This document shows, piece after piece, positions 1,478 to 4,721 of a stretch of DNA of 64,000 nucleotides (position 1 is its first letter; the number at the start of each line of letters is the position of its first letter). This DNA is from Archaeoglobus veneficus SNP6 (GTDB taxonomy: Archaea; Halobacteriota; Archaeoglobi; Archaeoglobales; Archaeoglobaceae). The notes under the pieces were generated by a model. It saw nothing but the letters and a program-made list of their open reading frames with translations, did no database searches and had not been told where the DNA came from. The stretch is taken from the NCBI RefSeq assembly GCF_000194625.1, contig NC_015320.1, forward strand, positions 186,001 through 250,000, given 5' to 3'. The position numbers and the translations under genes are program-made.

Positions 1478-2575
1478 ATGGTTGGAAACACCTTCGGCCA
1501 CATCTTTCGCGTAACAACGTGGGGCGAAAGCCATGGGAAAGCTGTAGGCTGTGTCGTTGATGGCTGTCCTGCTGGCCTCGACATCAGCAGTGAGGTAATT
1601 CAGCGGGAGCTCGACAGGAGAAAACCGGGTGGGAGGCTTGCAACAAAGAGAAAAGAAGAAGACAAAGTCGAAATTCTATCTGGAGTTTTTGAAGGTAAAA
1701 CACTCGGCACACCAATATCCATGCTCATCTGGAATAAAGATGTGGATTCGAGGCCGTACGAAGAGATTAAGGACCTGCTCCGCCCGGGACACGCAGATTA
1801 CACGTATCTTGCGAAGTTCGGCATCAGAGACTGGCGTGGTGGTGGAAGAGCCTCAGCAAGAGAGACTGCTGCGAGAGTGGCAGCGGGAGCTATAGCGAAG
1901 CACCTCCTCGCAAGGTTTGGTGTGAAGGTTGGAGGATACGCGAAGGAAATCGCCGGCGTAAGCTGTAACGTTGATGGCATGAGTTTTGAGGAGATAGTCG
2001 AGAAGGCTGAGAAAAGCGATGTCAGATGTCCAGACAGCGAGGCTGCGAAGCTGATGGAGGAGCGCATCATCGAAGCGAGGAGGGAAGGCGACAGCGTTGG
2101 GGGTGTGGTGGAGGTAATCGTGAAAAATCCACCCGCTGGCTTGGGTGAACCCGTTTTCATGAAGCTCGACGCCTACATAGCCTATGCGGTCATGGGGATT
2201 CCTGCAGTGAAGGGTGTTGAGATAGGCGCCGGATTCGAAGCAGCGAGGATGAAAGGCAGCGAACACAACGACCCGATTGTGATAAAAAATGGTAGAATCG
2301 GATTTGCCACGAACAACGCCGGCGGAATCCTTGGTGGGGTATCAAACGGGGACGACATTATCGTCAGGGCTGCAATAAAGCCCACACCGTCCATTTCAAA
2401 GCCCCAGCGAACTGTAAATTTCAGGACGATGAAGGAAGAAGAGATAGTCGTTAAGGGCAGGCACGACCCGTGCATAGTGCCGAGAGCCGTGCCGGTGGTT
2501 GAGGCTATGGTCAGCCTTGCTATTGCTGACGCGATGATGCTTCAGGGTCTGATTCCGCGCTGCCTTCAGGGCTGA
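1478..2575 (+). CDS. aroC: Chorismate synthase
   Basis: Seventh enzyme of the shikimate pathway: it makes chorismate from 5-enolpyruvylshikimate-3-phosphate using reduced FMN. The 365-residue length is normal for the family. Signatures are WGESHGKAVG (residues 15-24), the RPGHADY motif near residue 103, GGGRASARET near 120, and the C-terminal RHDPCIVPRAVPVVEAM block. ATG 1478 is 26 bases downstream of a TATA-like box (AAGCTATAAACC, 1446-1457), fitting a leaderless message. Its 3' end runs 56 bases into the convergent HEAT-repeat gene. Confidence 0.96.
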   Translation: MVGNTFGHIFRVTTWGESHGKAVGCVVDGCPAGLDISSEVIQRELDRRKPGGRLATKRKEEDKVEILSGVFEGKTLGTPISMLIWNKDVDSRPYEEIKDLLRPGHADYTYLAKFGIRDWRGGGRASARETAARVAAGAIAKHLLARFGVKVGGYAKEIAGVSCNVDGMSFEEIVEKAEKSDVRCPDSEAAKLMEERIIEARREGDSVGGVVEVIVKNPPAGLGEPVFMKLDAYIAYAVMGIPAVKGVEIGAGFEAARMKGSEHNDPIVIKNGRIGFATNNAGGILGGVSNGDDIIVRAAIKPTPSISKPQRTVNFRTMKEEEIVVKGRHDPCIVPRAVPVVEAMVSLAIADAMMLQGLIPRCLQG

Positions 2576-3092
2576 ACGAGCTTAACGCAGCTTCGACCTC
2601 TCTTCTCTCACTTTCATCGAGAACCTTCATGCACCTCCTTAGAGCCTCGATGGCAACGTACTGTACGTAGGAACTCCTGTCTTTGAGCTTCTCGATCAGA
2701 GCCTTGTAGGTCTTCTTCGCAAACTCCGGGTTAACCTCTGCTATTCTCCCAGCAGCCTCTGCAGCTCTGTGTCTCACCCACGGACAGCCGTCTTTAAGCA
2801 ATTCGGTTATTCTCTCATCGGCAATGCCGAGCCTGCCGAGAGCTTCGGCTGCATGACCTCTAACCCACTCACATTCATCGTCGAGGGCGGATTGCAGCAG
2901 GGCTGAGAAGTCTGCGTAACCTTCTTCTGTCAGCTTTCCCATTGCATACACGGCCTTCTTTCTGACATTGCAATCCTCGCTCTCCATCAGTCGAGGAAGC
3001 TCACTTGCATAGCTTACGACTTTTCTCCACTCCTCCCTGTACCTTCTGCTTTCGATGTATTCTTGGAGATCTTTGCAAATTTTTGTGTGCAC
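2520..3092 (-). CDS. HEAT-repeat (PBS-lyase type) protein
   Basis: A 190-residue all-helical protein made of about five HEAT/PBS-lyase repeats. Recurrent units such as RGHAAEALGRLG, RHRAAEAAGRIA and QYVAIEALRRC are visible between residues 35 and 165. No catalytic motif is seen; such repeats usually act as protein-binding scaffolds, so no specific job is assigned. The start is GTG at 3092. The last 19 codons overlap the 3' end of aroC on the other strand, and the Ser/Glu-rich tail (SPEGSAESDPEASSRQQ) is encoded in that overlap, so it may be a late C-terminal extension. Confidence 0.75.
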   Translation of the reverse strand: MHTKICKDLQEYIESRRYREEWRKVVSYASELPRLMESEDCNVRKKAVYAMGKLTEEGYADFSALLQSALDDECEWVRGHAAEALGRLGIADERITELLKDGCPWVRHRAAEAAGRIAEVNPEFAKKTYKALIEKLKDRSSYVQYVAIEALRRCMKVLDESERREVEAALSSFSPEGSAESDPEASSRQQ

Positions 3093-3130: not shown

Positions 3131-3165
3131 AAACTTAAATATTATTGTAGCTAACAATTAGTTAG
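3131..3165 (+). promoter_or_regulatory. hsp20 promoter with HSR1-type operator
   Basis: A TATA-like element (AACTTAAATATT, about 3132-3143) is followed by the perfect inverted repeat CTAAC-AATTA-GTTAG at 3151-3165. This is an exact match to the CTAAC-N5-GTTAG operator described for the heat-shock repressor HSR1 of Archaeoglobus fulgidus (knowledge recalled, not searched). Its place between TATA box and gene is where bound protein would block initiation. Confidence 0.8.
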
Positions 3166-3206
3166 GATTTGTAGGTAAATGTACAAAAGTTAAGGAGGTG
3201 ATGGGG

Positions 3207-3647
3207 ATGAGACACTTTCTCGACCCGTTTGAGGAGCTGAGGAGAATGCATGACAGGCTGAACAGGATGTTTGAGGAGTTTGAGAGATTTAGCAGGCAGT
3301 TTGCTCCAGAGGAACTTGCGGTTCCTGCTGCGATGCCCGTGGACGTAATCGATGAGGGTGATAAGATCAAGGTTGTCGCAGACCTGCCAGGTTTCAACAA
3401 GGAGGACATCCAGATTTACGTTGAAGACGGAGACCTTGTAATCAGAGCTGAAAGGAAAGAGGAGAAGGAAGAGAGGGGCAAGGACTTCATAAGACAGGAG
3501 CGCAGGTACGGCGAGGTTTACAGGCGTGTGTCGCTACCTGCTGAAGTGAAGATCGAAGAAGCAAAGGCCAGCTACAACAACGGAGTGCTCGAAATAGTAC
3601 TGCCAAAGACCGAAAAGGCACAGAAGAAGGAGATTAAGATTGAGTAA
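3207..3647 (+). CDS. Small heat-shock protein, Hsp20/alpha-crystallin family
   Basis: ATP-independent chaperone that holds unfolding proteins in large oligomers. A roughly 45-residue helical N-terminal arm (FDPFEELRRMHDRL-like start) precedes an alpha-crystallin domain. VDVIDEGDKIKVVADLPGF begins the domain and YNNGVLEIVLPK is its conserved last strand. The protein ends in IKIE, which may serve as the C-terminal anchoring motif. GTG 3198, ATG 3201 and ATG 3207 are in frame. The Shine-Dalgarno AAGGAGGTG (3192-3200) includes the GTG and sits six bases before ATG 3207, which is therefore chosen. The HSR1-type operator upstream predicts heat induction. Unlike the HSR1 operon, no regulator or Cdc48 gene follows. 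Confidence 0.93.
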   Translation: MRHFLDPFEELRRMHDRLNRMFEEFERFSRQFAPEELAVPAAMPVDVIDEGDKIKVVADLPGFNKEDIQIYVEDGDLVIRAERKEEKEERGKDFIRQERRYGEVYRRVSLPAEVKIEEAKASYNNGVLEIVLPKTEKAQKKEIKIE

Positions 3648-3652
3648 CCCCA

Positions 3653-3669
3653 ATTTTTTGATTTTTTGT
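3653..3669 (+). terminator. T-rich terminator after hsp20
   Basis: Two runs of six T residues, 3654-3659 and 3662-3667, begin a few bases after the hsp20 stop codon. Archaeal RNA polymerase commonly terminates at such U-runs without a hairpin. The gene reads alone, so a terminator is expected here. Confidence 0.55.
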
Positions 3670-3854: not shown

Positions 3855-4721
3855 ATGCCTGATGCAAGATCATTCCTTGAAGTCATAAAACCCAAGCAAA
3901 CAACTCTTCTCATGGTCACGTGTGTCGTAGCATACACTATTGCCCTCAAACTATATCAGAAGCCTTTTTTACCCTCTCACTTCGCTGCGACCTTCACCGC
4001 GACGATTTTGGCGGTTGCTGGAACAACAGCACTCAACATGTGGCTTGACAGCGACATAGATGCGCTGATGTGCAGAACGAGGCACCGCCCCGTACCATCG
4101 GGTAGGCTCAGCCCCGTAGGCTGTGCTCTTTACGGCCTCGTCCTGTTCGTAGCAGGCTTCGGCCTTGGGCTTCTCGTAAATGCGTATCTTGCCTTGGTTT
4201 TGCTCCTTGGCCTCTTTTTCGACATAATCGTTTACACAATCATGCTAAAAAGGAAAAGTCCGTACTCCATCGTCCTCGGTGGTCTTGCAGGAGCGATGCC
4301 CTGTTTAGCAGGCTGGACGGCTGCTGCTGGCAGAATTGAGCTTGCAGGAATTCTTGCAGCGGCGATAATTCTTCTGTGGATTCCCGCCCACATCTGGTAC
4401 CTTTCAATGTACTTTGAGGAAGACTACCGCAACGCCCGCATCCCAATGCTACCCCTCGTAGTCGGTATGGAGCGCGCTTCATGGGCAATAGTGCTCAGCG
4501 TTGCGTTCATGCTTGTAACCGTTGCTGTTCTTTTCTTTGTCGCGCCCCTCAGCGTGCTTTACTTTGTGACTTCCACTGCCGTAGTTTCCTACTTCCTTTA
4601 CAGAGCCGTGAAATTTGCCCTCTCTCCAAGCAGGGAGAAGGCAAAACAGATGTACAAGCTCGCAAGCATAACACTCGGGGTCGTTTACCTCTCTATGCTC
4701 ATCGGGACAATATCGGGCTGA
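3855..4721 (+). CDS. ctaB: UbiA-family prenyltransferase, protoheme IX farnesyltransferase-like
   Basis: An integral membrane prenyltransferase of 288 residues with about eight or nine hydrophobic segments. The Mg/diphosphate-binding motif N61-x3-D65-x3-D69 is followed by RTRHRPVPSGRL, the pattern of heme O synthase (CtaB/CyoE) rather than of lipid-type UbiA enzymes. A second aspartate-rich segment, YFEEDYRNARIPMLP, also matches CtaB. It would add a farnesyl group to heme B in the membrane. No terminal oxidase or heme A synthase gene is next to it, so the physiological product is unknown. A different UbiA specificity is the main alternative. Confidence 0.82.
   Translation: MPDARSFLEVIKPKQTTLLMVTCVVAYTIALKLYQKPFLPSHFAATFTATILAVAGTTALNMWLDSDIDALMCRTRHRPVPSGRLSPVGCALYGLVLFVAGFGLGLLVNAYLALVLLLGLFFDIIVYTIMLKRKSPYSIVLGGLAGAMPCLAGWTAAAGRIELAGILAAAIILLWIPAHIWYLSMYFEEDYRNARIPMLPLVVGMERASWAIVLSVAFMLVTVAVLFFVAPLSVLYFVTSTAVVSYFLYRAVKFALSPSREKAKQMYKLASITLGVVYLSMLIGTISG

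Follow-up and report, generated by a model that had tools for sequence, protein, structure and literature searches.

The closest described system to the locus analysed here is the HSR1 regulon of Archaeoglobus fulgidus, which reportedly comprises the operon AF1298-AF1297-AF1296 together with AF1971, and which has the same operator, the same operon genes and a second target. Rohlin et al. 2005 are said to have footprinted HSR1 both at AF1298 and at AF1971, a stand-alone hsp20 gene; control of such a copy in trans would thus already have been shown at AF1971, and the present case adds a further species to a known pattern. HSR1 is described as an autoregulatory protein which binds CTAAC-N5-GTTAG and is thought to be a repressor at normal temperature (PMC9133787), with hsp20 and an AAA+ ATPase among the members of its regulon (PMC10653856), and how it works is little known according to review (PMC9133787). 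Together with Phr of Pyrococcus furiosus it falls into one widespread family, arCOG01684 (PMC5852551); the available passages of that paper word both proteins as inducing hsp20/cdc48, whereas PMC9133787 describes repression. Like HSR1, Phr represses hsp20 and its own gene while bound over the transcription start (PMC9133787), and its regulon also includes an AAA+ ATPase (PMC10653856). The Phr consensus, however, with TTTA, TGGTAA and AAAA at -10, the start and +10 respectively, is unlike CTAAC-N5-GTTAG (PMC9133787). Very few regulators of archaeal heat shock have been characterised, and the comparison described below gives a precise operator model for one of them.

The window, by which we mean the whole stretch of 64,000 nucleotides that was analysed, covers positions 186001-250000 of the genome, a single contig of 1,901,943 bp that is 99.99% complete. 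It contains one exact match to CTAAC-N5-GTTAG, against a mean of 0.04 per window expected from 100 dinucleotide shuffles, and this match lies in promoter position, between a TATA box whose first base is 17 nt upstream and the heat-shock gene hsp20 (Table 1). The initial annotation had reported an exact HSR1-type palindrome here, in front of an hsp20 gene standing outside the hsp20-cdc48-HSR1 operon and followed by a terminator and a prenyltransferase, and it is borne out on each of these points; the operon lies 0.44 Mb off, a T-rich stretch which is probably a terminator follows hsp20, and a UbiA prenyltransferase gene is found downstream. The best-placed start codon of hsp20 is likely to be the ATG at 3207, judging from its spacing and from the leaders of relatives. 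Elsewhere in the window, at 608-1419, a small DNA-binding-like gene stands in front of a PIN-like one, whose PIN match is below the curated cut-off; the two are a possible toxin-antitoxin pair.

Table 1. Features of the stand-alone hsp20 locus (window coordinates) and of the HSR1 operon (genome coordinates).
Feature	Position	Strand	Remark
HEAT-repeat gene	2520-3092	minus	divergent, upstream of operator
BRE-like element CGAAAAA	3127-3133	+	read from sequence
TATA box CTTAAATAT	3134-3142	+	first base 17 nt before operator
HSR1-type operator CTAAC-AATTA-GTTAG (CTAACAATTAGTTAG)	3151-3165	+	over the expected transcription start, inferred from TATA spacing
Third half-site GTAAA	3175-3179	+	exactly +14 from the operator's GTTAG
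Fourth half-site GTTAA	3189-3193	+	+28, touches Shine-Dalgarno
Shine-Dalgarno GGAGGTG	3194-3200	+	from sequence
Stand-alone hsp20	3198-3647	+	PF00011, E 1.9e-22; first start GTG 3198
T-rich stretch ATTTTTTGATTTTTTG	3653-3668	+	from sequence; probable terminator
UbiA prenyltransferase gene	3855-4721		PF01040; downstream of hsp20
HSR1-cdc48-hsp20 operon (genome)	628284-624769	minus	0.44 Mb from stand-alone hsp20
HSR1, P0001, 223 aa (genome)	628284-627613	minus	operon gene 1
Operon cdc48 (genome)	627569-625350	minus	behind HSR1
Operon hsp20 (genome)	625296-624769	minus	behind cdc48
Exact operator of HSR1 operon (genome)	628317-628331		32 nt before HSR1 start

Three exact sites were found in the genome as a whole, against one for a reversed-pattern control, and these lie at the stand-alone hsp20, at the promoter of the HSR1-cdc48-hsp20 operon and at position 610679. 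Scaled up from the window value, chance alone would supply approximately 1.2 exact sites per genome. An exact match therefore proves little by itself, and the case for the site rests on its promoter position and on its conservation in relatives. Sites with up to one mismatch, the exact ones included, were not enriched in this genome (14 versus 35 in the control), and as they do not rise above the control a longer list of HSR1 targets was dropped. The genome holds two Hsp20 matches, which belong to the first and the second exact site respectively, and at both of these promoters the distance from the TATA start to the operator is 17 nt. With only two hsp20 genes, one per promoter site, the regulator would have to act in trans on the stand-alone copy, as the initial annotation had proposed; this is the natural reading of the genome, since an HSR1 homologue exists elsewhere in it with an exact operator of its own. 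The homologue, P0001, is 53% identical to the HSR1 of G001, which we take to be A. fulgidus VC-16, and in that genome too an exact site is found before the stand-alone hsp20 (1772115-1772540). The proposed assignment to the Archaeoglobaceae agrees with the named relatives that were recovered. The site is thus real and the earlier reading of it right, albeit mostly known; what is added here is an extended operator in two forms, a class-wide rule of two targets and the case of Ferroglobus placidus.

The third exact site, 610679, was rejected as an HSR1 target, having the 17-nt layout on neither strand and no half-site at +14, and it looks like an unrelated chance match. A TATA-like stretch adjoins one of its sides, and a gene encoding a 272-aa winged-helix protein and a DnaG-type primase frame are found nearby; the surrounding region (L018, G000:C1:600000-618000) is a possible integrated element.

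A survey of 59 genomes of the class for exact CTAAC-N5-GTTAG returned 109 sites, compared with 72 for the reversed-pattern control, so that the raw count is raised only modestly. Of these sites 89 lie at the same two promoters, 43 of them before a stand-alone hsp20 (a gene for which seven genomes, G006, G012, G016, G018, G034, G039 and G044, have no row) and 46 before HSR1. Of the 53 hsp20 copies, 50 depart from the operator by one mismatch or none, the misses being G046 and the two genomes of the outgroup family (G057 and G058, genus g16); the same holds for 50 of 54 HSR1 rows, the other four having two mismatches and one of these being an assembly-edge artefact. A TATA-like element starts 16-18 nt before the operator in 44/50 hsp20 promoters and 37/53 HSR1 promoters, and a GAAA starts 22-24 nt before it in 39/50 of the former; in this geometry the operator would cover the predicted start of transcription, as the binding site of a repressor would. 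Judged from these comparisons, the two-target arrangement, of own operon and stand-alone hsp20, is old and holds generally within the class as sampled here.

As to the extent of the site, the initial annotation had equated it with CTAAC-N5-GTTAG; the palindrome is indeed exact, but the operator appears to exceed these 15 bp. Offsets were counted from the operator itself, leader positions having been taken from tblastn-estimated starts. Genus g16 (G057, G058) was excluded, as were rows that exceeded two mismatches; what remained was 50 of 53 hsp20 rows, one with a leader too short for +14, and 53 of 54 HSR1 rows, one of which (G045) is a contig-edge artefact with an offset of -511. In the hsp20 leaders GTNA is found at +14 from GTTAG in 42 of 49 cases and in 14 of 15 genera, a number that none of 2000 shuffles reached (mean 1.9, maximum 8), and again at +28, where 22 of 42 leaders and 10 of 15 genera have it (shuffle maximum 7); the shuffles preserve leader composition and not kinship, hence the genus counts. 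The leaders in this 14-nt register read GTTAR-N9-GTNAR, often twice. Over offsets 5 to 33, the only other positions at which GTNA occurs in at least four hsp20 leaders are +23 (14/44), where it is read as the GTGA of the Shine-Dalgarno sequence, and +5 (7/50, one genus). The +14 element itself is not a by-product of the Shine-Dalgarno sequence, as it is still present in 25 of the 27 leaders, and in all nine genera, in which the two do not touch. Its genus-weighted conservation is 0.89 for the G at +14, 0.97 for the T at +15 and 0.98 for the A at +17, the preceding spacer being mostly weaker. In 8 of the 50 leaders GTNA at +14 is missing or the leader is too short, mainly in genera g12 and g13, and in g13 the distance from the start of GTTAG to that of the Shine-Dalgarno sequence can be 4-12 nt.

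The HSR1 promoters carry a different extension, GTTAGTAAC, instead of the 14-nt array. Positions +5 to +8 from the start of GTTAG are TAAC, with genus-weighted conservation of 0.99, 0.98, 0.98 and 0.82, while +14 is little conserved, GTNA being found there in 14/53 promoters, which is still above the shuffles (maximum 9). The one palindrome thus has a different extension at its hsp20 and at its HSR1 target, an arrangement that is possibly new; no description of the extra half-sites was found in the literature searched, in which coverage of subscription papers is partial, and both the 14-nt ladder and GTTAGTAAC are absent from the descriptions of the A. fulgidus regulon in the available text of the reviews.

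The protein that would read these sites, P0001, belongs to the HSR1/Phr family (arCOG01684), having an ArsR winged helix at its N-terminus (HTH_5, E 4.9e-17, residues 15-59) and clear homology to both A. fulgidus HSR1 and Phr, and its locus is an HSR1-type operon with cdc48 and hsp20. Residues 116-215 also match winged-helix families in Pfam, and a structural model (mean pLDDT 89) predicts two winged helices with a long helix connecting them. By sequence, the closest solved structures are Phr, 2P4W (E 5e-19), and PF0095 of P. furiosus (E 1e-9). Phr aligns with the model over residues 4-96 only (Z 13.6), HSR1 having in addition the predicted C-terminal winged helix, whereas PF0095 (2QLZ, 2QUF) aligns over its full length (Z 15.9, 207 residues, rmsd 3.4, 20% identity). 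An operator made up of more than two half-sites would go well with a chain that has two DNA-reading heads, as modelled. However, in an alignment of 41 of the 48 listed HSR1 proteins (A1) the 20 invariant columns all fall within residues 17-86; conservation is lower in the C-terminal winged helix than in the N-terminal one, an argument against the former recognising DNA in a sequence-specific way, and it is therefore equally possible that the ladder takes a second HSR1 dimer.

Ferroglobus placidus (G022) presents the reverse situation, an operator without its presumed regulator. A profile search of its complete genome did not find HSR1, nor were an operon-type cdc48 (best match 67% identity, versus 84% in G023) or a second hsp20 found there, and yet CTAACTTAAAGTTAGGATTGCAAAGTTAAGGAGG is retained at its hsp20 (C1:313944-313958), where both the operator and the half-site at +14 persist. 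G023, from the same genus, has HSR1 and a nearly identical operator, the sequence further upstream having diverged by eye. F. placidus offers a natural knockout for HSR1, and it is the only firm absence among the genomes examined. In G019, G021 and G032 the HSR1-negative result falls at contig ends (4911, 23413 and 3581 bp), shortly beyond the operon hsp20 and before the expected HSR1, and the profile search of G058, a draft genome of the outgroup family, gave no HSR1. A separate peculiarity of the operon is seen in A. profundus, where cdc48 (G015:C1:697921-701574) carries an intein, with Intein_splicing and LAGLIDADG matches in an uninterrupted frame.

Taken together, we put a probability of about 0.8 on the palindrome being the operator of the ArsR-type repressor HSR1 at a second, stand-alone hsp20, where it would act in trans and with extended half-sites; the site with its position and conservation, the array and the regulator gene are what the analysis shows, and binding, repression, heat release and the role of the extra half-sites are what we infer from it. 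HSR1 made from the distant operon would, at normal temperature, occupy CTAAC-N5-GTTAG as a dimer. Sitting there, directly behind the TATA box and across the point where transcription begins, it would keep the transcription machinery off the promoter, while heat would free it from the operator, as suggested by the work on A. fulgidus and P. furiosus. At hsp20 the GTNAR half-sites, at exact 14-nt steps, would extend the operator as far as the Shine-Dalgarno sequence, and at HSR1's own promoter it would extend as GTTAGTAAC. These extra half-sites may provide further contacts for HSR1, either through a second dimer or through the C-terminal winged helix, and may set a differing strength of repression at the two promoters. 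A wider proposal, on which we would not lean to either side, is that two extended operators are built on one palindrome, at stand-alone hsp20 with a ladder of direct half-sites in exact 14-nt steps along the 5' leader and at HSR1 with an inverted, overlapping half-site (GTTAGTAAC), which the two-winged-helix HSR1 reads differently, resulting in graded, promoter-specific heat control conserved across the Archaeoglobi, with the operon palindrome reaching the Methanosarcinaceae and Methanocellales.

The observations can also be accounted for in other ways. The palindrome could be the HSR1 operator while the ladder works in the mRNA, as GUUAG repeats which tune, for example, translation or RNA decay; the half-sites do lie beyond the point where transcription should begin, and the ladder often runs right up to GGAGG, and the +14 element is rarer at the HSR1 promoter (14/53). 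The repeated unit is, however, the palindrome's own half-site and is phased to the palindrome, and some leaders have no ladder, so that we think this unlikely. Slightly less probable still is that a different winged-helix protein recognises the hsp20 operator, alongside or in place of HSR1. It is F. placidus that raises this question, since operator and array are retained there although HSR1 was not found, and its best profile match (E 5.5e-10) spans the N-terminal winged helix alone (positions 6-69). Against this, the loss of HSR1 in F. placidus may be recent, the same palindrome is found at the HSR1 promoter, and no alternative candidate was linked to the site. Lastly, the exact palindrome could be a chance match with the stand-alone hsp20 outside HSR1 control, as the one or so exact site expected per genome, of which 610679 looks like an example, would allow; a site with no more than one mismatch, at the same promoter position in 50/53 hsp20 copies and with a TATA spacing of 16-18 nt in 44/50, makes this extremely improbable.

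The reading as an HSR1 operator is therefore preferred, and comparison carries this operator into the methanogens. One scan of named genomes, from which 80 of 81 loci were kept, found an HSR1 homologue followed by cdc48, and mostly then by hsp20, in the Methanosarcinaceae, a Methanocellales MAG and others. Exact CTAAC-N5-GTTAG is present upstream of HSR1 in 14 of the 35 loci outside the Archaeoglobi (L224, L226-L259), and a TATA-like stretch, judged by eye, directly precedes it. The remaining 21 loci lack an exact site, some having imperfect ones (L234, L235). The available text of PMC5852551 makes no mention of operator conservation in methanogens. In the Methanosarcinaceae the operator is usually far from the HSR1 start codon, implying a long leader. 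At six loci (L228, L230, L231, L239, L240 and L258) it lies about 160 nt before the estimated start, and a conserved GGTTACTAAC is found further down the leader. Some methanogens have genetic tools. One of the contigs scanned (L226) is titled Deltaproteobacteria and bears an archaeal-type HSR1-cdc48-hsp20 operon; it is probably mis-binned.

Within the class, 20 exact sites lie outside the two promoters, of which 14 were inspected (13 together with 610679). Seven of the inspected sites, all from genus g2 (L155, L156, L157, L159, L160, L161 and L162), are found before genes for DUF2178 membrane proteins, a domain confirmed by Pfam for L155, L160 and L161 and assigned by eye for the rest. These sites are mostly CTAACATWATGTTAG and lie within a more extensive inverted repeat; in several cases a Cro/C1-type regulator follows the membrane protein gene. 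They are probably the operator of another regulator, or they might represent a third HSR1 target, since in some of them the distance to a TATA-like stretch is similar. Two further sites (L163, L164) fall within RNase P RNA (Rfam RF00373) and one (L165) inside a long frame, while three (L158, L166 and L076) belong to none of these groups. Around position 3982 of L158 (G003), a TATA-like stretch and CTAAC-N5-GTTAG-TAAC precede a 72-aa hydrophobic frame by a prolyl-tRNA synthetase-like gene, a promoter which is a possible species-specific target of HSR1.
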